Of a DNA stretch of 64,000 nucleotides, positions 9,146 through 58,705 are shown in pieces. The stretch covers positions 186,001-250,000 of the forward strand of contig NZ_JAEVLS010000004.1 in assembly GCF_016801985.1 (NCBI RefSeq). Reading direction: 5' to 3'. This DNA is from Steroidobacter gossypii (lineage in GTDB: Bacteria; Pseudomonadota; Gammaproteobacteria; Steroidobacterales; Steroidobacteraceae). Every line of letters begins with the position of its first letter. Position 1 is the stretch's first letter. Both the position numbers and the translations under genes were made by a program. Under the pieces are notes generated by a model, which searched no databases, was not told the origin of the DNA, and was given only the letters and a program-made list of their open reading frames with translations.

Positions 9146-10702
9146 TCATTCCTCCAATGCAACGACGGCCACAGAATGCGGCGGCAACTTCAAATTGATC
9201 TTGCCGGCGCGCGCCTTCGCTTCGAGTGACTTCGGTGCGACCGCATTGGGAGCGTCGAACGTGTTCACGCTGTCGACCTTCGGCGCCGAAAGAACTCTTC
9301 CCACGGCGCGCTTGGCGCGCGAGGTCAACTCCACCTGCGCAGGAGCGGAAGGATCCACATTGGTCAGCGCCAGCCAGGTCTTGCCATCCTTGCCCTTGGC
9401 GGCGATGGCATCGAGCTGCGGTAAGGTGATGTCGCCGTTGACGTAACTGCCTGCGTCGAACGTCACCGGTAGAAACGTCGCGTCCTGAAAAGGCACATAC
9501 ATGTGGAACACGTGATACGTGGGGGTCAGCACCAGCTTGTCCCGCTCGGTCAGGATCATGGCCTGCAGCACGTTCACCATTTGCGCGATGTTCGCGATGC
9601 GCACTCGATCCGCCTTTCGAGCGAACATGTTGATGTTGAGCGCAGCGATGACTGCGTCGCGAATGCTGTTCTGCTGCTCGAGAAATCCTTCCTTGCTGCC
9701 GGGCGTCGGCGCGAGCCAGGAGCCCCATTCGTCGACGACCAGCGCGATCTTCTTCTCCGGGTCGTACCGGTCCATGATCGCGACGTGAGTGTTCAGCAAC
9801 TCGTTCATTCGCAAGGTGTGCTTGACCAGCGCTGCGTACTCTTTCGGACCGAAGCCGGTGGCGTCGAACTTCGGCGGCCAGCCGCCGCCGACCGTGTAGT
9901 AGTGCAACGAGAGCCCATCGATGTCCCAGCTCCAGTTGCGCTCCTTCCAGGCTTTCATCACCGCTTCGGTGTAGCCGGTGTCCGCAGTATCCGGCCCGAC
10001 GGCAATCTTCAGCGTCGGATGTTTGGCGTTGTAATTGCGCGTGTAGCGGGCATAGATGCGCAGCTGGCTCACATATTGTTCTGGGGTCATCGAGCCGCCG
10101 CAGCCCCAGCTCTCATTGCCGATGCCCATGAACGAGATGCCGTACGGTTCGGGATGTCCGTTCGCCGCGCGTTGCTTCGCCAGCGTCGTGGGCTGATCGG
10201 TCGTCATGTATTCGAACCAGTCGGCCGCCTCGTGCGGCGTGCCGGAGCCGACATTGACCGAGATGTACGCCTCGGCGCCGATCTGTTGCACGAAGTCCAT
10301 GAACTCGTGGGTGCCGAAGGTATTCGGCTCGATGACGCCGCCCCAGTTGGGATTGAGGGTCGCGGGCCGCTCCGCTTGCGGACCGATGCCGTTGCGCCAG
10401 TGATACTCGTCGGCGAAGCAACCACCCGGCCAGCGCACGTTGGGCACGCGCAGCTCTTTCAGCGCCGCCACCACGTCGTTACGGATGCCTCGTGTATTCG
10501 GAATCGGCGAGTCCGGTCCGACCCAGACTCCCTCGTACACGCCTCGTCCCAGATGCTCTGCGAACTGACCAAAGAGGTGTCGATCGATCTTGGCGCCCGG
10601 CTTGTCCGCGTCGATCTTCACTGCGACCGGCTCGCCCTGGGCCACACCGACACACGCCGTCAAACCGATCAGCAGCGCTCGAACTGAAAACATGAATTTC
10701 AT
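9146..10702 (-). CDS. GH51 alpha-L-arabinofuranosidase
   Basis: The 518-residue enzyme releases arabinose from arabinoxylan or its oligomers. A signal peptide (MKFMFSVRALLIGLTACVGVAQG) predicts export. Then follow the GH51 N-terminal segment HLFGQFAEHLGRGVYEGVWV, the (beta/alpha)8 barrel, and a C-terminal beta domain ending LPPHSVAVVALEE. Acid/base Glu197 is in GIGNESWGCGG and the nucleophile Glu325 in VVDEWGSW. The length is normal for GH51. It is 43 bases downstream of the GH3 gene and 33 bases upstream of the GntR gene, all in one direction. Many GH51 enzymes are cytoplasmic; the clear signal peptide places this one in the periplasm, where it would work on imported oligosaccharides together with the GH3 enzyme. 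Confidence 0.94.
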   Translation of the reverse strand: MKFMFSVRALLIGLTACVGVAQGEPVAVKIDADKPGAKIDRHLFGQFAEHLGRGVYEGVWVGPDSPIPNTRGIRNDVVAALKELRVPNVRWPGGCFADEYHWRNGIGPQAERPATLNPNWGGVIEPNTFGTHEFMDFVQQIGAEAYISVNVGSGTPHEAADWFEYMTTDQPTTLAKQRAANGHPEPYGISFMGIGNESWGCGGSMTPEQYVSQLRIYARYTRNYNAKHPTLKIAVGPDTADTGYTEAVMKAWKERNWSWDIDGLSLHYYTVGGGWPPKFDATGFGPKEYAALVKHTLRMNELLNTHVAIMDRYDPEKKIALVVDEWGSWLAPTPGSKEGFLEQQNSIRDAVIAALNINMFARKADRVRIANIAQMVNVLQAMILTERDKLVLTPTYHVFHMYVPFQDATFLPVTFDAGSYVNGDITLPQLDAIAAKGKDGKTWLALTNVDPSAPAQVELTSRAKRAVGRVLSAPKVDSVNTFDAPNAVAPKSLEAKARAGKINLKLPPHSVAVVALEE

Positions 10703-10745
10703 TGCAACGTCCTATCGTTCCTTTGTTACTTGCGAAGCGGTCCGC

Positions 10746-13427
10746 TCACGGCGCCAGCGGAGTGACTCGCGTCATCGTGAAAACACCGGACTGCACTGGC
10801 ACACCGGTGCCCGGCTGCCCCGATCCCACGCTCACAGTGTGTTCGCCCGAGAAAATCTGGCGCTGGCCGTCGCGAGTCACGAAACTCAGATCGCGCCGCG
10901 AGAGCTCGAACGTGACGGATCGCTGCTCGCCTGGACGCAGCTGCAGACGTTGAAAGCCTCGCAGTGCGAGCCGCGGTGCGCCTTCGAACGACGGGGGATC
11001 CAGATACAGCTGAGCAACCTCTTCGCCCACGCGGCTGCTGGTGTTTCGAATCGTGGTTGTGACACGCAGCCCGTTTTCGGCCGCGCCGTCGATCGGTTGC
11101 ACGCTCAGAGCGCCGTATTCGAAGCTCGAGTAGCTCAAGCCAAAGCCGAACGGATAAACCGGCGCGCCTTCGAAGTAACGATAGGTGCGCCCTTGCATCG
11201 AGTAATCCTCGAACGGCGGCAGATCCTCGACGCTGCGGTAGAACGTAAGCGGCAGTCGTCCGGCCGGGTTGGTCTTGCCAGCGATCACGTTGCCGATGGC
11301 CAGCCCGCCTGCCTGTCCTGCGTACCAGGCTTCAATGAGTCCCGACGCATGTGCCTGCTTCCAGGAAACATCGAGCGTGCTGCCATTCATGAGCACCACG
11401 ATCAGCGGTTTGCCCGTCGCCTTGGCCTGCTCGAGCAGCCGGCGCTGATCGGCGGGCAGATCGATCGAAGTCTTGTCGCCACCGAAGAAGCCCTCCAGCT
11501 CGACTTTCATCTCTTCGCCTTCGAGATTGGAGTTCAGGCCGACGGCGGCGACGATCACATCCGCTTGTGCCGCGGCGGCGCGCAGGTCGGCTTCGGGTTG
11601 GGTCGAAACACGTTTCCACAACACTTCAATGCCGGCCAGCAACAACGCCTCCGCGGTGACCCGAATCGGATAGCGCCGCCCTTTCTGTAATTCGAGCGTC
11701 GACATCTCCGAGCGCGTACCCCACGGCTGATGGCGATGCTGGGCAATCAGCTTGCCGTCCAGCATGAGCTCCGCATTCGGACCGCTCAGACCGATGCGAT
11801 ACGTTCCGCTCTCGGGCGGCACTACAAAACCCGTCCACACGACGCGGTAGTAGTCGGATAGTTGCGCGTGCTCGTTGCCGCGCATGGCGATGCCCGGCTC
11901 GACCCGAGACACCGTCGGTTTGCTCTTGAATTTGACTTTGCCGGCGCGCTCCGCATATTCCGCGTGCGTCGCGTAGCGCTTCGGCAAACGCTCGTCGGCG
12001 TCGTAGTACTCAGCCAACAGACCCGGCTCTCCGCTGGGCGAGCGCAACGCCGACGTTGGGATCGGGTCGCCATCGGTGATGGCAGGCGACCAAGGCACAT
12101 GCGTCACGACGGCGCGTGGCATCGCCCGGCGCAATCCGTCGACGAGAGAAATCGGAGGACTCGACAGCGCCGAGGAATAGTTTCCTCGCAACACCCGCGT
12201 CGCGTCGGCGTGCGGGCCGATCACCGCGATCCGTTCGCTGCCCTTCAATGGCAACACGCCGTCGTTCTTGAGCAGCACGAGCGTCTTCTCGGCGGCTTTC
12301 AATGCGAGTGCATCCCGCTCGGGCGTCGTGACCGGCGCAGGCGGAGTATTGATCGCCGGGCGTCCGGCGAGTCCGGGCAGATCGCCATTGAGATAGCGAG
12401 CCGAGAACAATCGGATCAGCGCCTGATCGATGTCTCGCATGCTGATCAAGCCGCGCTCGTAGGCTTGCTTGTAGCGGTTGCCCAGACCGTCGAGATCGAA
12501 CAACGTGGCATTGGTGCACTCGTTGTCGACGCCTGCCTTGAGCGCGGCGGCCACGGCAGTTACTGCATCTGGCGCGAATCCGTGCTTCTCGGAGATGTCT
12601 TGCACGGCGTCGCAGTCCGAGACCACGTAGCCGTTGAACTTCCACGCGTCGCGTAGGCGCGCTCGTAACAATTCATTGCTCACACACGCAGGTTCGCCGT
12701 TGACGCGGTTGTAGGCGCACATGATCGAACCCGCCCGCCCTTCGACAATCGCCGCACGAAATGCGGGCAGGTAGGTATCTTCGAGGTCGTGCGGCGAGAC
12801 GAACACATTGGCGTGATGTCGCGTCGACTCGGGGCCGCTGTGAACGGCGAAGTGTTTGGGCGAGGCGATCACGTCGGGCCGATCGGGATCGGGACCTTGC
12901 ATCCCGCGCACGTACGCAACACCCAAGCGCGCGGTCAGAAATGGATCCTCACCGTAGGTTTCCTGTCCTCGTCCCCAGCGCGGATCGCGGAAAATGTTGA
13001 TGTTGGGTGACCAGGTATTCAGCCCGGTGCCAATGCGGCCCAGCCGTCCCGTCTTGCGGCCCAATGCGTGCAGCGCTCGCACTTCCACGCTGATGGCGCC
13101 GGCCACTTCTTGCAGCAGCGCCTCGTCGAACGACGCAGCGAGTCCGATCGGTTCCGGGAAATTCGTGGTCGGCACGGGACCAAGCGCGCCATGCAACGAT
13201 TCGGTCCACCAGTTGTAGGCGGGAGCGCCCAAGCGCGGAATGGCTGGCGCGGTGTTGAGCAACTGCTCCACTTTTTCATCCAGCGTCAGCTGGCCCACCA
13301 ACGCCGCGGCCTTCTGCTCCGCTCGAACACGCAGCGAAGCGTCGTCGGCATCGGCGTTCGCCGCACCGCTTGCCGCCGTGGCCAGGCAAAGCGCCAGCAG
13401 ACAACTTGAGATGAAGCGCAAAGTCAT
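10746..13427 (-). CDS. GH3 beta-xylosidase/beta-glucosidase with PA14 insert
   Basis: The 893-residue periplasmic glycosidase starts at ATG 13427, which has AGGAAGAGGAAC upstream and opens a signal peptide (MTLRFISSCLLALCLATAASG). The order is GH3 N-terminal barrel, GH3 C-terminal domain interrupted by a PA14 domain (GEPGLLAEYYDADERL ... LSGPNAELMLDGKLIAQ), and a fibronectin-III-like end. The nucleophile is Asp271 in GYVVSDCDAV. WTESLHGA near the start is typical of the xylosidase branch. An open frame extends 106 codons further upstream into the cupin gene but lacks any family sequence. The gene lies 14 bases after the cupin stop, inside the arabinoxylan operon, so release of xylose from xylo-oligomers is the likely role. 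Confidence 0.93.
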   Translation of the reverse strand: MTLRFISSCLLALCLATAASGAANADADDASLRVRAEQKAAALVGQLTLDEKVEQLLNTAPAIPRLGAPAYNWWTESLHGALGPVPTTNFPEPIGLAASFDEALLQEVAGAISVEVRALHALGRKTGRLGRIGTGLNTWSPNINIFRDPRWGRGQETYGEDPFLTARLGVAYVRGMQGPDPDRPDVIASPKHFAVHSGPESTRHHANVFVSPHDLEDTYLPAFRAAIVEGRAGSIMCAYNRVNGEPACVSNELLRARLRDAWKFNGYVVSDCDAVQDISEKHGFAPDAVTAVAAALKAGVDNECTNATLFDLDGLGNRYKQAYERGLISMRDIDQALIRLFSARYLNGDLPGLAGRPAINTPPAPVTTPERDALALKAAEKTLVLLKNDGVLPLKGSERIAVIGPHADATRVLRGNYSSALSSPPISLVDGLRRAMPRAVVTHVPWSPAITDGDPIPTSALRSPSGEPGLLAEYYDADERLPKRYATHAEYAERAGKVKFKSKPTVSRVEPGIAMRGNEHAQLSDYYRVVWTGFVVPPESGTYRIGLSGPNAELMLDGKLIAQHRHQPWGTRSEMSTLELQKGRRYPIRVTAEALLLAGIEVLWKRVSTQPEADLRAAAAQADVIVAAVGLNSNLEGEEMKVELEGFFGGDKTSIDLPADQRRLLEQAKATGKPLIVVLMNGSTLDVSWKQAHASGLIEAWYAGQAGGLAIGNVIAGKTNPAGRLPLTFYRSVEDLPPFEDYSMQGRTYRYFEGAPVYPFGFGLSYSSFEYGALSVQPIDGAAENGLRVTTTIRNTSSRVGEEVAQLYLDPPSFEGAPRLALRGFQRLQLRPGEQRSVTFELSRRDLSFVTRDGQRQIFSGEHTVSVGSGQPGTGVPVQSGVFTMTRVTPLAP

Positions 13428-50336: not shown

Positions 50337-50783
50337 CTAGCCTTCGGACAAGGCCTTGATGAGTGGATGAACTTCATCCGCGTATGGGTTGACGACCGTC
50401 ACACCACGCCAGGTGAAACCGTGCTGGAAATCTTCGGATAGCAGAATACGACAGCGCGCCTCCGCAGCCACCGACAGAATCAGTCCATCCCAAATCTGCA
50501 TCGACATCTCGGCGGCAAGATCGAAAGCAGCAAGGAATGCGGCATGCGTCGAATCATGAACAGCGAAAGCATCCGACCAACTCAGCACCATCGAGCGAGC
50601 TTTTGCTCGATCGATGCCACTCGTGCCCGTGAGAACCCGAAAGAGTTCGCCGAGGGTCTGAGCAGGCAGCACGACATTGTCCACAGGCAAGGCGCTCAGC
50701 AAGGCATGAGTTTTCCGGCGCTTTGCCTCTTCCCCGACGCCCTCGGCGTACGCGAGGACATTCGTATCCAACGCGATCTTCAC
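50337..50783 (-). CDS. PIN-domain RNase toxin (VapC type)
   Basis: The 148-residue protein begins MKIALDTNVLAYAEG, which carries the first acidic residue of the PIN active site (Asp6). Others are the Glu in TLGELFRVL, Asp in MQIWDGLILSVAAEA and Asp in LLSEDFQHGFTW. PIN toxins cut RNA, often tRNA or rRNA. ATG 50783 overlaps the stop of the antitoxin gene by four bases, the usual operon form. It lies between the AraC gene (convergent, 48 bases) and the antitoxin gene. Confidence 0.9.
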   Translation of the reverse strand: MKIALDTNVLAYAEGVGEEAKRRKTHALLSALPVDNVVLPAQTLGELFRVLTGTSGIDRAKARSMVLSWSDAFAVHDSTHAAFLAAFDLAAEMSMQIWDGLILSVAAEARCRILLSEDFQHGFTWRGVTVVNPYADEVHPLIKALSEG

Positions 50784-51022
50784 CGCTCGTCGTCGTACAA
50801 GTCTGCGCGCTCCCAGTTGCGCGCACCGCCGCCCTTCCGCTTGCTGAGTCGCGCAAGCAATGCGTCCCTAGCCGCCGCACGCACCTGAAGTCTTCCTGAA
50901 GCAGGTCCCAATGTGGCTACGGGCTTGCCTCGCGAGGTGATCAAAATGGTTTGCCCGCGAGTCGCTTCGCGCAGCACTTCAGAGAAGTGACGGTTCGCCT
51001 CCGCCGCCGAGATGGTCTTCAT
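50780..51022 (-). CDS. Phd/YefM-family antitoxin
   Basis: The 80-residue protein starts at ATG 51022 (MKTISAAEANRHFSEVLREA), the typical Phd fold start; an in-frame upstream start would add 18 residues with no family match. GQTILITSRGKPVATLGPA is the dimer/DNA-binding core, and the basic C-terminal region RLSKRKGGGARNWERADLY should wrap the toxin. AGGGCAGG lies just before the start. The pair probably represses its own promoter in the 270-base gap toward the desaturase gene. Confidence 0.9.
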   Translation of the reverse strand: MKTISAAEANRHFSEVLREATRGQTILITSRGKPVATLGPASGRLQVRAAARDALLARLSKRKGGGARNWERADLYDDER

Positions 51023-51294
51023 CCTGCCCTCCGATGTAGTGCTGAACACTACCTCAGGCACATGGACTGGCGCCACTGCGCAAGGCGGCGCCCAGGCTTG
51101 GCGCGCGGATCCAGGCGTTTTCAGATGAGGACGATTCCAGAATGATCTTTCCGGAAGTCGGTAAGTTGTTGATCTGACGGCATGCGAGAACGATCTGATC
51201 CTCGCGGATCAATCCGGAAGCCAGTCCATCGCAGCTCAGTCCAGCGTCGGCATGTGGCGATCGCCACACCGAAAAACGCTGGAGGAGCGATGCA

Positions 51295-52503: not shown

Positions 52504-52780
52504 GATTTCCTCACAAGTCCTCGGGGACGTTTCAGCGCCGCAGGGTCGGCGCCTGAGCAAGAAACTTCACAACCGCAGATGCGGTTCCGAGCGTTCGGAA
52601 GTGGAACAGCGGACCCGTTGCCCTCGGCATGGTCGAGCTCAGCAGCTGAACCGCTTTGCCATGAGCGCCGTTCGGATACATTTTTTGATACACCTGCTGC
52701 GAACGCGTACATTCTTGCCGGGTGTCTAATGCAGACGCGCGCTGCACGATGCAGCGATCTCTGGTCCAAGGAGGGACACC

Positions 52781-54091
52781 ATGAGCACGGAACGACCTCG
52801 TATCTGCGACAGCCGTACGGACACCGACCGCTTCTGGGCGTTGGCCGATCAGTTGCAGGAACAAACGGTGGGGCACGCCAGCGACATGTTCGCGTTTGTC
52901 GAACAGGCGAGTCCGCAGCGTCTGTTCTCATTGCTGGTGCAGTATCGATACTTCACCGCCTGTTACATCTGCGATATCGCGCTGCTGATCGCGCGAATGC
53001 ACCCGGGAAAGATCCGCAGCTTTCTGGCCGATATCCTGTTCGATGAGCTCGGAGCGGGCGATCACCGCGAGGCGCATCCCCAACTTTACGACGACTTCCT
53101 GGGCAGCCTCGGTATCGAGCATCCCGCGTTCGACGACATGGCGCTTGCGGACAACGTTTCTCTTTTGGAGCGGGCGCGAGCCAGTCTCATCGATCCCGCA
53201 CGCAGCATTGCCTATGGCATCGGGCTGCGTGGCATGGGAGGCGAATGCGTCTGTCAGATCTACCTGGCGCGGTTGTATCGACATTTGATTCTCAACCCGT
53301 ATGTGCGCGCGCGCGCCGACAAGATCGATTGGAAGTTCTGGGACCTGCACGTCGGCGAGCACGACATTGCCCACCGGGAGAAATTTCGCAAGCTGCTCAC
53401 CGACGAAGTTGCGCGAATGGAGCCCGACGCCGTGCACGCGCTCGAAGCGGGCTATCGCGACAGCATGAAGGCATGGTCGGCCTTCTGGAACAATATTCAC
53501 GACGAAGCCACCAAGTCGGAAGCGCAGCCGCCAGGCCGGCGTGCCGCCATTGGCCATCTCGACTTCGGCACGCCGGTGACGCAGCGTAGCGATCAGCAGA
53601 TCGCCCAGTTCCACCTTGCCATCGGCGTGCACGATCTGATGGCAGCGCGACAGTTCTATTGCGAGGTGCTCGGCGCCCGGCAGGGACGCTCGACCAACAA
53701 TCTGATCGACCTGGATTTCTACGGCCATCATCTGGTGATTCATCAGCAGCCGCGCGATCAGACTATCGGCAACGGCGCCTTCGGCTCCGCATTCTACGGC
53801 GAGACCGTCAAGGTGCCGCACTTCGGCATCAATCTGGATTGGGACTCGTGGAGCGCCCTCGCCGAACGGATCCAGTTGCACGACTACCGCTTCATCGATC
53901 CCCCTCATATTCGCATGCGCGACCTGCCAGGCGAGCATGCGACCATGTTCCTGGCCGATCCGAGCGGCAATGCGCTGGAGTTCAAGGCATTCCGCAATCA
54001 CGACGAAGTATTCGCCGTGATCTTCTCGCCAGACACCAAGGACATTCACGGATTGGACAAGCTCGTGCAGAGCGCCCGCGACCATCGCTGA
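52781..54091 (+). CDS. Fusion of haem-oxygenase-like diiron oxidase (HDO) and VOC-superfamily domain
   Basis: The 436-residue cytoplasmic protein has AAGGAGGGACACC before ATG 52781. Residues about 15-235 match the iron-containing redox enzyme/Haem_oxygenas_2 group: DELGAGDHREAHPQLYDDFL (Glu89, His99) and WDLHVGEHDIAHREKF (His190, Glu193, Asp195, His198 as candidate iron ligands). Residues about 272-425 are a VOC (glyoxalase/extradiol-dioxygenase) domain, with His278 (FHLAIG), His347 (PHFGI) and Glu400 (LEFKAF) forming the usual H-H-E metal set. HDO enzymes make alkenes, N-oxygenate amines or cleave C-C bonds; VOC domains isomerise, cleave or sequester. The fusion suggests a two-step metal-dependent oxidation. 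It lies after the desaturase/lipoprotein pair, in opposite relation to the latter. Confidence 0.85.
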   Translation: MSTERPRICDSRTDTDRFWALADQLQEQTVGHASDMFAFVEQASPQRLFSLLVQYRYFTACYICDIALLIARMHPGKIRSFLADILFDELGAGDHREAHPQLYDDFLGSLGIEHPAFDDMALADNVSLLERARASLIDPARSIAYGIGLRGMGGECVCQIYLARLYRHLILNPYVRARADKIDWKFWDLHVGEHDIAHREKFRKLLTDEVARMEPDAVHALEAGYRDSMKAWSAFWNNIHDEATKSEAQPPGRRAAIGHLDFGTPVTQRSDQQIAQFHLAIGVHDLMAARQFYCEVLGARQGRSTNNLIDLDFYGHHLVIHQQPRDQTIGNGAFGSAFYGETVKVPHFGINLDWDSWSALAERIQLHDYRFIDPPHIRMRDLPGEHATMFLADPSGNALEFKAFRNHDEVFAVIFSPDTKDIHGLDKLVQSARDHR

Positions 54092-55159: not shown

Positions 55160-57466
55160 GTGTATTCCAGCCGCCTCCTGTTCGGATTGTCGCTCGCCGT
55201 CCTCTTCAGCCCCAACGTTTTTGCCGCCGAATACAATCCCGCGCGCACGCAACCCGCGGCCGTCAGCGCCAGTGCCGAGCGTGTGATCGTCAAGCTGAAG
55301 GACACCGCCTCATCGGCCGGCGCTCGAGCCAAGCCCGCTGGCGATGCGATGGCGGCGCTGGCCAGACGTAACAAGCTCAGCTTGAAGCAAACGCGCCCGA
55401 TCACCTCGGCCCTGCACGTCATGAAGTTCGAGCCGGAGTCCTCGGGTGAGTCCGTCGACGAGATTCTCGCGCGGCTGCGGGCGGATCCTGCTGTCGAATA
55501 TGTCGAGCTGGATGAACGACGCTATCCACAGGCGGTGCCCAACGATCCGTTGTATCTGGGGCAGTGGTACCTGCAGAACGCCGCCACGACGCCGAGCGCG
55601 ATCGACGCCGTCAGCGCGTGGGATGTGACGACCGGCAACATCGGCGTGGTGATCGCCGATATCGACACAGGCGTGTTGTACAACCACCCCGATCTGCTGC
55701 GACTCGCGGCAAGCGGGCGATTGCTGCCGGGCTACGATTTCATCTCCGATCCGGCCGTGGCGAACGACGGCGACGGACGGGACTCGGATCCGACCGACGC
55801 AGGCGACTGGGTCACCGTGGCGGAGGCGAACTCTGCGGCCTTCAGCCGTTGCTCTGCCTCCGAAAGCTCCTGGCATGGCACACGCGTCGCAGGGATCCTC
55901 GGTGCACGGACCAACAATTCAACCGGAGTTTCAGGCGTCACCTGGAGCAACTCGATTCTGCCGGTGCGCGTGCTGGGCAAATGCGGCGGATTCGATTCGG
56001 ACATTCTCGCCGCCATGCTGTGGTCCGGCGGAATACGGGTCGCCGGCGCGCCGGACAATCCTTTTCCGGCGAAGATCGAGAATCTGAGTCTCGGATCGCT
56101 CGGCACCGTCTGCCCCGCGAGCTATCGAGACGTGATCGGCCAACTCACTGCAGCCGGTGTGCTGGTCGTGGCAGCCGCTGGCAACGAAGGTGGCCCGGTC
56201 GGCATCCCCGCAAGGTGCCCTGGCGTTGCGGCGATCGCGGGGCTGCGACACACCGGCACCAAGGTAGGCTTCAGCAGCCTCGGGCCGGAGATCGCCCTCG
56301 GCGCGCCAGGCGGCAACTGTGTCAACACCGGCGCAGGCCAGCCTTGTTTGTATTCGATCGATACGACGTCCAACCTTGGCACGACCACCGCCTCGACCAA
56401 TGTTTACACCGATCGATTCAACATCAACGTCGGCACCAGCTTCGCGGCGCCGATCGTTTCGGGCATCGCTGGGCTCATGGTCGCCGTCAACGGCAATCTG
56501 AACTCATCTCAGCTGATCGCGCGGCTCAAGGAAGGAGCGACGACCTACCCGGTGTCGAGCGATCCAAACGTTCCGCTGTGTCGCGTGCCCACGGCCCCGA
56601 ACGATTTGCAGACCGCCGAGTGCAGTTGCACGACGCAGACATGTGGCGCGGGCATGGCCAATGCGAATCGCGCTGTGCAGGCGGCCCTTCGCCCTATCGC
56701 CGCCGTCATGACGCCTACCTCCATCAGTGCCGGACAGAGTGTCGTGTTGAACGGTTCAGGAAGTGCGGCGGCATGTAACAGCACCGTCGCCTCGTATGCA
56801 TGGACGGTCGTCAGCGGCTCGACTTCCATCTCGGGTAGCAATACCGATACAGCCACCGTCATTGCGCCATCCACGGATTCCTTCACCGTGCGACTCACCG
56901 TGACCGACGATATGGGTCGACAGGACACGGCCGATGTAATCGTGAGCTCGAGCGCCGTCACCACAACGGCGCCGTCGAACGCTGGAACAAATGCGTGCCC
57001 GATCAGCAATATCTCTGCCGTCACCGTGTCCGTGTCGCCGGCGAGCGCAAGCATTCAGGTGGGCGGTTCGCAAACATTCACGGCTGTGGTCACCGATGCT
57101 TCGGACACGACGGTGAGCTGGCGAGTCAACGACATCGCCGGCGGCAATGCGACTGTTGGCACCATCTCGACCAGCGGCGTGTATACAGCCCCGGCAAGCG
57201 TGCCGTCACCTGCGACCGTCACGATTACAGCAGTGTCGTCGGCGGACAGCAGCCGATCGGCGTCCGCACAAGTCACAATCAGTCCGGCTGCGAGTCCCTC
57301 CGACAGCGGCAGCGGTGGCGGTGGTGGTGGCGGCGGCGCGTTCGACTGGCTGTCGTTGATGTTTCTACTGCTGTTCGCTGCCGGCTACGCCGGTCGCCGC
57401 CCGCGCAGACTCACAAGCAACAATTCAAGAACTGTCATACGCGCCCGCCCGGCGCGCTCGCCTTGA
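55160..57466 (+). CDS. Secreted subtilisin-like serine peptidase (S8) with GlyGly-CTERM-like tail
   Basis: The 768-residue protein starts at GTG 55160 and has a signal peptide (LLFGLSLAVLFSPNVFAAE). A propeptide-like region (about 40-120) precedes the S8 domain, with Asp169 in IADIDTGVLYNHPDL, His239 in SSWHGTRVAGIL and Ser427 in GTSFAAPIVSGI. After about residue 510 come PKD-like and bacterial Ig-like segments. The end has a Gly run, a hydrophobic segment (FDWLSLMFLLLFAAGYAG) and RRPRR, the form of the GlyGly-CTERM sorting signal handled by rhombosortase and type II secretion. It is followed by an M35 peptidase gene. Confidence 0.93.
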   Translation: MYSSRLLFGLSLAVLFSPNVFAAEYNPARTQPAAVSASAERVIVKLKDTASSAGARAKPAGDAMAALARRNKLSLKQTRPITSALHVMKFEPESSGESVDEILARLRADPAVEYVELDERRYPQAVPNDPLYLGQWYLQNAATTPSAIDAVSAWDVTTGNIGVVIADIDTGVLYNHPDLLRLAASGRLLPGYDFISDPAVANDGDGRDSDPTDAGDWVTVAEANSAAFSRCSASESSWHGTRVAGILGARTNNSTGVSGVTWSNSILPVRVLGKCGGFDSDILAAMLWSGGIRVAGAPDNPFPAKIENLSLGSLGTVCPASYRDVIGQLTAAGVLVVAAAGNEGGPVGIPARCPGVAAIAGLRHTGTKVGFSSLGPEIALGAPGGNCVNTGAGQPCLYSIDTTSNLGTTTASTNVYTDRFNINVGTSFAAPIVSGIAGLMVAVNGNLNSSQLIARLKEGATTYPVSSDPNVPLCRVPTAPNDLQTAECSCTTQTCGAGMANANRAVQAALRPIAAVMTPTSISAGQSVVLNGSGSAAACNSTVASYAWTVVSGSTSISGSNTDTATVIAPSTDSFTVRLTVTDDMGRQDTADVIVSSSAVTTTAPSNAGTNACPISNISAVTVSVSPASASIQVGGSQTFTAVVTDASDTTVSWRVNDIAGGNATVGTISTSGVYTAPASVPSPATVTITAVSSADSSRSASAQVTISPAASPSDSGSGGGGGGGGAFDWLSLMFLLLFAAGYAGRRPRRLTSNNSRTVIRARPARSP

Positions 57467-57607
57467 GGCTGCGCGCTCGACTCGGCGGCGCCTGATGTCG
57501 CCTTGACACGGATCGACCCCGCCCATTAGATGCGTACGCCGGCAAGTCCGGCGCAGCGGCCTCGCCGCTGCCCACAGAAGATCGAGAGCAAGCAAAAGGA
57601 GTTGCTT

Positions 57608-58705
57608 ATGGATCTCTATACTTTTCTCCGTCGTCCTCTGAGTCTCTATGGGCTGATCGCCGCCCTGTTGTTCGCACTCCCTGCCGCGGCCGCGAATGGG
57701 CCGTTGCAAACCAAGTTGGCCCCGGTGGCCGACGATCAGCGAATCACCGTCCGTGTCACCTTCACCAACACCTCGAACGAGGATGTGTACTTTCTAGCCT
57801 ACGAAACTCCGCTGCGCGGTATCGAGCGGGATCTGTTCGTCGTCGAGCTGGACGGAGAGCGCATGCCATACACCGGCATCGTCGCGTTCCGCGCGGCTCC
57901 CACCAAGGAGGATTGGATACAACTCGCACCGGGAACTGAAATATCGGAGGTAATAGACATCTCGGCCGCATACGACACACGCCGCAGTGGCACTTATCAG
58001 GTTCGCTACAACGCAGTTCAGCAAATCCACCAGGGTGTCGTGCCCAGCACATCTCCAGCAGTCGACGCGCAAGGTTTGGGAACAACTTCACAATACGTCG
58101 GTAAAGGCGTGTCGTCGGAATCGATCTCGGTATCGATTTCCGGAACGCCCGCATCCGCCAAAGATCTGGAACCGTTTGCGAAACCCGACGTGGCGCCCGA
58201 CTACGTGTCCGGCGAGTTCGAATGGCCCGCCGCCACCTACGGCTGCCAAAGCCCGTCCGTCATCAATTCAGCGCAGTCGACCGCGCGCAGCCGAGCACAA
58301 CGCGCTTATAACACTGCGACGAGCTTCAACTCCTGGTATCAAACCTGGTTCGGCAACTCGCCGTCGGCCGTCTCCACGGTCCGCTCACGCTTCGCCAACG
58401 CATACAACCGGCTCGGCCAGAATGTCGATTACTACTGCGGATCGTACGCTCCCTACTGCTCCGCCGGCGTGGTCGCCTACACCTATAAAACCACCAGCAA
58501 CCGGGTGTATCTGTGCTCGGCGTTCTGGAGCTACTCGGATAAAGGGCACGTGATCGGTCACGAGGCATATCACTGGAACACTGTCGCCGGCGCTGACGAT
58601 GTGACTTACGGCTTCAGTCAGTGTCAAAGCCTGGCGCGAACGCGGCCGAACGACGCGCTTCGCAACGCAGACAACTATGCGTATGCCGCCGACACTGCGC
58701 CCTGA
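57608..58705 (+). CDS. Secreted M35-like (aspzincin) metallopeptidase
   Basis: The 365-residue protein starts at ATG 57608 with AAAAGGAG upstream and a signal peptide (LIAALLFALPAAAANG). The first 170 residues form a beta-sandwich with VRVTFTNTSNEDVYFLAYETPL, as in peptidyl-Lys peptidases. The catalytic part has HExxH at His318-Glu319-His322 (IGHEAYHWN) and the third ligand in GADDVTYG (Asp330 or Asp331), the aspzincin signature. Several Cys (YYCGSYAPYC) suggest disulfides. M35 enzymes are best known from fungi and some secreting bacteria. It is 140 bases downstream of the subtilase gene, and a hairpin follows it. Confidence 0.9.
   Translation: MDLYTFLRRPLSLYGLIAALLFALPAAAANGPLQTKLAPVADDQRITVRVTFTNTSNEDVYFLAYETPLRGIERDLFVVELDGERMPYTGIVAFRAAPTKEDWIQLAPGTEISEVIDISAAYDTRRSGTYQVRYNAVQQIHQGVVPSTSPAVDAQGLGTTSQYVGKGVSSESISVSISGTPASAKDLEPFAKPDVAPDYVSGEFEWPAATYGCQSPSVINSAQSTARSRAQRAYNTATSFNSWYQTWFGNSPSAVSTVRSRFANAYNRLGQNVDYYCGSYAPYCSAGVVAYTYKTTSNRVYLCSAFWSYSDKGHVIGHEAYHWNTVAGADDVTYGFSQCQSLARTRPNDALRNADNYAYAADTAP

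Follow-up and report, generated by a model that had tools for sequence, protein, structure and literature searches.

Does a single gene in the window (the whole stretch of 64,000 nucleotides of Steroidobacter gossypii DNA that was analysed) join two metal-enzyme domains in one protein and, if so, what might that protein do? The gene in question carries a domain of the haem-oxygenase-like diiron oxidase (HDO) type followed by a VOC domain (Table 1). Its open reading frame is a real gene: (i) GC contents at the three codon positions are coding-like (0.65/0.41/0.76), (ii) full-length homologues are 65–72% identical, and (iii) Pfam recognises both domains in the same 436-aa frame, each above its cut-off. 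These are Haem_oxygenas_2 (PF14518; residues 67–232, 43.0 bits against a cut-off of 28.9) and Glyoxalase (PF00903; residues 278–401, 36.5 bits against 20.6). The architecture search thus confirms the original prediction, which had placed an HDO and a VOC domain in one chain. No cupin was detected in the protein by Pfam, the VOC domain being found instead. An AlphaFold2 model of the full-length fusion, built from six alignment rows, was too low in confidence for use (pLDDT 44.5).

An assembly artefact was considered and ruled out, since the fusion is present both in the window and in 11 of the 20 genomes of the Lysobacter genus set. Here and below, “Lysobacter genus set” and “Lysobacter family” refer to the genus and family of Lysobacter sp. 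ISL-50 (locus L003). The family bears the NCBI name Lysobacteraceae, and is also called Xanthomonadaceae; the window genome belongs to another family.

Table 1. The fusion gene and its predicted functional elements, in window coordinates.
Feature	Position	Strand	Basis
HDO-VOC fusion gene, 436 aa	52781..54091	+	Open frame; full-length Lysobacter homologues; Pfam domains
AAGGAGG, ribosome-binding-site-like	52768..52774	+	Sequence reading; six bases 5' of the ATG
HDO domain, residues 1–240	52781..53500	+	PF14518 at 67–232; PDB profile matches to BesC, FlcD and CADD
Predicted helix-1 ligands E89 (53045–53047) and H99 (53075–53077)	53045..53077	+	38/38 rows; E-x9-H, as FlcD E181/H191
Predicted helix-2 ligand E155, then invariant C156 and C158	53243..53245 (E155)	+	Each in 38/38 rows
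Predicted helix-3 ligands H190, D195 and H198, with inserted G192	53348..53374	+	Each in 38/38 rows; BesC alignment gap at G192
Interdomain linker, about residues 241–275	53501..53605	+	Length varies, 24–37 residues across six fusions
VOC domain, residues 276–404	53606..53992	+	PF00903 at 278–401; 3rri match over 276–404
Predicted VOC metal triad H278, H347 and E400	53612..53980	+	56/56 VOC rows

Is the HDO domain equipped to bind metal? In an alignment of 38 HDO sequences, six predicted dimetal ligands (E89, H99, E155, H190, D195 and H198; three histidines and three carboxylates) are each invariant, as are G192, C156 and C158; the assignment comes from sequence alignment, and its helix-3 spacing is unusual. 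The earlier list of ligands is therefore amended rather than overturned: Glu89, His99, His190, Asp195 and His198 stand, Glu193 falls away (E in 36 rows and D in two, at a place that fits no canonical ligand position), and E155 had been missed. Written as motifs, the subfamily has E-x9-H, GxECxCQ and HxG[ED]xDxxH.

The unusual feature is the third helix, whose motif in this HDO subfamily reads H-x4-D-x2-H, with four residues between the first histidine and the next ligand as opposed to three in FlcD, MboA and AetD. In the available portions of the published descriptions, the spacing is H-x3-E-x2-H in AetD (ligands D76, H79, E140, H172, E176 and H179; PMC10654658) and H-x3-D-x4-H in MboA (E86, H89, E143, H172, D176 and H181; PMC13185094), while in FlcD the ligands are E181, H191, E244 and H274, with V278 and R281 occupying the last two places (PMC11363339). 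Because the helix-3 spacing is unlike these examples, there may be a change at the second metal site. An HMMER alignment with BesC places a one-residue gap at G192, such that D195 and H198 land on ligand columns; with a bulge in helix 3, the ligands would regain their geometry. BesC is the best PDB match of a profile built from 13 HDO rows (profile positions 49–234, E 8.9e-6), followed by two FlcD chains (1.4e-5 and 1.7e-5), two CADD chains (0.0065 and 0.0069) and three further, weaker matches. It differs from the fusion in being a 257-residue chain without a VOC domain, and in having a helix-3 motif without the inserted glycine.

The same helix can be read another way: the insertion may abolish the second site, leaving a mononuclear-iron enzyme like FlcD in which only E89, H99 and H190 bind iron. 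Counting from H190 in the canonical register, the last two ligand positions do fall on H194 and A197, neither of which is conserved (position 194 is H in just 13 of 38 rows), and FlcD, in the accessible text of PMC11363339, itself goes without the last two ligands. FlcD also shares the E-x9-H spacing of helix 1, and its chains are the closest, if weak, PDB matches of the HDO part in a single-sequence phmmer search (E 0.024 and 0.027). Yet D195 and H198 are invariant in all 38 rows with D-x2-H spacing and, taking G192 as inserted, they occupy the very positions that FlcD (which also has no VOC domain) has given up. On this evidence we consider a mononuclear site unlikely, and favour a domain that would bind a dimetal cluster, probably diiron.

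The haem-oxygenase-like seven-helix fold expected of an HDO was looked for by structural modelling. A weak AlphaFold2 model of the HDO part (six rows; pLDDT 58.5) breaks the helix at residues 193–195. When this model was searched with Foldseek, no match reached E ≤ 0.001; among the best 50 of 197 matches at E ≤ 10, 48 are haem-oxygenase-like by title, and the first 42 rows among the matches listed are all haem-oxygenase-like folds. BesC, RohS, HrmI, AetD, SznF and FlcD are all among these best 50, with FlcD showing the highest query-normalised TM-score (0.60)—a point that, for a model this weak, lends some further weight to the FlcD-like alternative.

The VOC domain retains the three ligands originally named for it, His278, His347 and Glu400, as do all 56 VOC rows aligned. 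Four further residues mark those VOCs that are paired with an HDO: H317, F338, N351 and H386 are fixed in 33 of 33 paired VOCs (12 from fusions and 21 from the split gene pairs described below), while standalone VOCs carry Q, V, I or V, and Q at these positions, the paired-VOC residues occurring in 0 of 23 rows. The 23 standalone rows are the loci returned by our searches rather than a full sample. No HDO was found near any of them in the fetched stretches (2.2–3.5 kb in total for 22 loci, 19 kb for one), which for most loci cover about 1.5 kb of flank per side. Searched against the PDB with phmmer, the VOC part finds the VOC protein 3rri (residues 276–404, E 1.3e-9). It is a single-domain protein of 135 residues with Q at the H317 position, and the printed alignment is gapped at H347; it also has a histidine at the H386 position, so H386 is not exclusive to HDO-paired VOCs.

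VOC proteins include drug binders. It is therefore conceivable that the VOC domain merely binds or protects the HDO product, in the manner of bleomycin-resistance proteins, and the fusion protein does show a match to Ble-like_N (PF22677), at a score below that family's own cut-off. Such a non-catalytic role sits poorly with a metal triad kept in 56 of 56 rows and with H317, N351 and H386, fixed in HDO-paired VOCs and missing from the 23 standalone rows; we judge it quite unlikely, and take the VOC domain to be a probable catalyst. The window genome also holds a standalone VOC paralogue (contig C25; L002/L067) that is 51% identical to the fused domain and has no HDO within the 19 kb fetched.

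Are the two domains found together outside the fusion? In 21 split loci of the Lysobacter family, the VOC gene lies directly 3' of the HDO gene on the same strand (21/21). At no fewer than 15 of them a possible VOC start codon is so placed that the VOC and HDO genes would overlap by exactly 4 bases, a count that rests on the first three candidates per locus. A class III aminotransferase gene follows on the same strand in 17 of the 21 and was not found in the other four, while a QueC-like PP-loop gene lies upstream, divergent from the HDO gene, in all 21. When the ORFs of four loci were compared, those common to at least seven of the 21 split loci all overlap the HDO, VOC, aminotransferase or PP-loop genes. 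The fusion is thus the one-gene form of an adjacent, often overlapping HDO-VOC gene pair; the fusion itself, together with adjacent, co-directional genes in every split locus, supports a functional coupling of the two domains.

The gene identities were examined at one split locus, L057. Its HDO gene matches PF14518 (48.7 bits) and its VOC gene PF00903 (33.6 bits against a cut-off of 20.6). The aminotransferase matches NCBIfam PRK06062 (718 bits against 472), and its best PDB match is taurine:2-oxoglutarate aminotransferase (E 4.2e-109). The PP-loop gene (10177–11052) carries WTGGWDSTFRLL and CGICPPC; it scores 19.8 bits with Pfam QueC, under the cut-off of 22, and matches no PDB chain.

The aminotransferase is also a neighbour of the fusions, although in a different arrangement: it adjoins all 11 Lysobacter fusions in convergent orientation, 71–420 bases away by alignment ends. 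No PP-loop gene was found near these 11 fusions in the fetched stretches. Three of the fusion loci (L003, L004 and L005) share ORFs of at least 110 aa only at the fusion and the aminotransferase. Association with the aminotransferase was counted among HDO-carrying loci only.

Comparison of the two arrangements suggests how they may be related. Within either the fusion or the split group, aminotransferase, HDO and VOC are all 75–87% identical; between the groups, mean identity is 73.6% for the aminotransferase as against 45.2% for HDO and 52.1% for VOC. We read this difference as replacement beside a resident aminotransferase: the pattern looks like that of an HDO-VOC unit swapped in one piece next to a neighbour that stayed constant. 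Faster evolution of both HDO and VOC domains is an alternative account of the same figures. In the HDO and VOC trees, both of which come from a quick method with a midpoint root and contain long branches that meet, the 12 fusions form one group (SH-aLRT 99 in each). The fusion HDOs adjoin a standalone HDO from a Rhizobium rhizogenes plasmid (SH-aLRT 99), and the fusion VOCs cluster with the split VOCs, apart from the standalone ones (SH-aLRT 95).

How far does the architecture extend? A scan of genome contigs returned five loci, all from Lysobacter and all full-length fusions, 67–70% identical in the alignment. Of the 20 genomes in the Lysobacter genus set, 11 have the fusion at full length, two have separate, neighbouring domain genes and seven have neither (one of the seven has a weak VOC match). 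Across the Lysobacter family, the HDO alignment matches 27 of 198 genomes, 26 of them strongly (E < 1e-90), comprising five with fusions and 21 with split pairs. Around the window genome the picture is sparser: the HDO part was found in 0 of 13 other genomes of its own genus, six of which have a standalone VOC only, and in its family of 150 genomes it alone matches the HDO alignment.

Wider samples gave similar results. In the class sample, matches occur in 56 of 369 genomes, mostly through the VOC part alone; the HDO match is strong (E < 1e-40) in four, among them the window genome, and none besides the window's has both domains in one match. Of 398 genomes in the phylum sample, the HDO alignment finds six, two of them strongly: the window genome and one split-pair genome, which is counted twice, as its coordinates equal those of one in the Lysobacter family sample. 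A second class within the phylum gave no strong HDO match among 385 genomes (eight match weakly, best E 2e-10). Viral contigs gave one weak match to the HDO alignment and none to the standalone HDO of locus L066; among plasmids, 98 records match, none of them with a single stretch that spans 80% of the query. Such patchy presence suggests that the HDO-VOC unit moved between bacterial families, in one direction or the other.

What substrate might the protein act on? An early proposal was lipid chemistry, on account of a neighbouring fatty acid desaturase. A gene matching FA_desaturase (PF00487; 51295–52266) indeed lies 514 bases upstream of the fusion and is read from the same strand, and the HDO UndA acts on fatty acids according to the available part of PMC13108848. 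Comparison of loci gives the proposal no support: a desaturase homologue is absent from all 37 related loci examined; the recurrent partner is the class III aminotransferase. The gap between desaturase and fusion also contains a promoter-like site, weak evidence against the proposal given that one was found against 0.6 expected. We regard a shared role of fusion and desaturase in lipid chemistry as very improbable. The window locus itself has neither the aminotransferase nor the PP-loop partner gene. Elsewhere in the window genome there is no close aminotransferase (best 36% identical), and one 41% identical PP-loop homologue whose neighbours are unlike HDO, VOC or aminotransferase genes.

A second lead comes from five loci that carry a standalone HDO. 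None showed a VOC match in the fetched stretches (4.6–24.8 kb), so an HDO of this family does not require a VOC partner. Three of the five have a serine acetyltransferase gene: directly upstream of the HDO in L066 (where Pfam identifies SATase_N), as the third downstream gene in L041, and at a distance of about 7 kb in L042, whose cysE reads in two frames and adjoins sat. L066 and L042 additionally have GST and cupin genes downstream of the HDO, the two cupins being 54% identical.

These neighbourhoods raise the possibility that the pathway handles substrates derived from cysteine or O-acetylserine, with a thiol-dependent VOC standing in for the GST of the two standalone loci. Such a reading would accord with the taurine aminotransferase match at L057 and with FlcD and FlcE, which use cysteine-derived substrates in the accessible text of PMC11363339. 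Several observations pull the other way: no cysE match occurs in 32 Lysobacter-family loci or in the window, the standalone sample is small (five loci), a lactate permease and a TetR gene separate HDO from GST in L042, the GSTs of L066 and L042 show no mutual match at E 1e-6, and the specificity of a class III aminotransferase is not readable from similarity. We therefore hold the cysteine pathway to be somewhat unlikely in this form, and treat cysE beside three of five standalone relatives as a lead only.

Two of the standalone loci are described here for their own sake. L041 (11971–15532; Rhizobium rhizogenes plasmid pC5.7c) contains the closest standalone HDO found, 49% identical. Downstream of it come genes for a methyltransferase, a DMT transporter and cysE, and upstream of it lie YcaO and TfuA genes; the region is possibly a small biosynthetic cluster. 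In L042 (8989–18554; Nostoc plasmid pNsp_g), the HDO gene is co-strand with those for lactate permease, GST, cupin, cysE and sat, with the gene for the TetR-type regulator on the opposite strand between them.

Does the fusion belong to a described type of enzyme? About a dozen of more than 10,000 predicted HDOs have been functionally validated, and SznF stands apart from the other characterised HDOs by a cupin at its C terminus, which rearranges what the HDO domain produces (both from the available part of the review PMC13108848). The fusion most likely resembles SznF, an N-nitrosourea-forming enzyme, in layout: an HDO is followed in the same chain by a second domain, which in SznF acts on the HDO product. 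It does not belong to that type; here the second domain is a VOC rather than a cupin, and the partner genes differ. No description of an HDO-VOC enzyme was found in the open-access literature (subscription papers lay outside its coverage), in agreement with the initial view that the fusion was not a recognised enzyme. Papers mixing HDO names with VOC words are, among the matches listed, genome or metagenome surveys by title, and the words fusion, fused, VOC and glyoxalase are absent from the accessible text of the review. The fusion is thus a real, conserved and apparently undescribed HDO-VOC architecture.

The account that we prefer, and to which we give slightly better than an even chance, is of a two-stage metalloenzyme with SznF-like layout acting on an amino-acid-type substrate, as part of a small pathway with an aminotransferase in the Lysobacter family. 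In the first stage, the N-terminal HDO domain would use O2 at its predicted dimetal cluster to oxidise an amino-acid-type small molecule; FlcD and FlcE use amino-acid-derived substrates (available text of PMC11363339). In the second, the VOC domain, of a distinct subfamily and with one divalent metal, would convert the reactive HDO product by rearrangement, by cleavage, or by addition of a thiol or water. In Lysobacter and its family, the HDO-VOC pair would work together with the class III, taurine-aminotransferase-like enzyme; the lone window copy would presumably still serve the same reaction as the Lysobacter pair.

A broader version can be offered tentatively, as possible but short of probable. 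Here, HDO-VOC and aminotransferase would make up an oxidative pathway so far undescribed, found repeatedly in the Lysobacter family and perhaps concerned with a cysteine-derived substrate. A single transformation in two steps would be shared between a diiron HDO, its third helix remodelled, and a VOC enzyme dedicated to it; the HDO-VOC unit would have become a fusion and passed between families. A conserved pair that is also found fused offers a direct handle on what one group of HDOs passes on and on the enzyme that receives it. With the aminotransferase, the PP-loop gene and both the split and the fused states to work with, the pathway is open to expression and deletion tests.

Lastly, other genes of the window were recognised around the locus. 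Upstream of the desaturase and the fusion, positions 50337–51076 hold genes for a PIN toxin and a Phd/YefM antitoxin (Pfam). Positions 57530–58705 hold a gene for a lysine-specific M35 metallopeptidase (Aspzincin_M35), beside which lies a large gene (55160–57466) that is subtilisin-like by eye.
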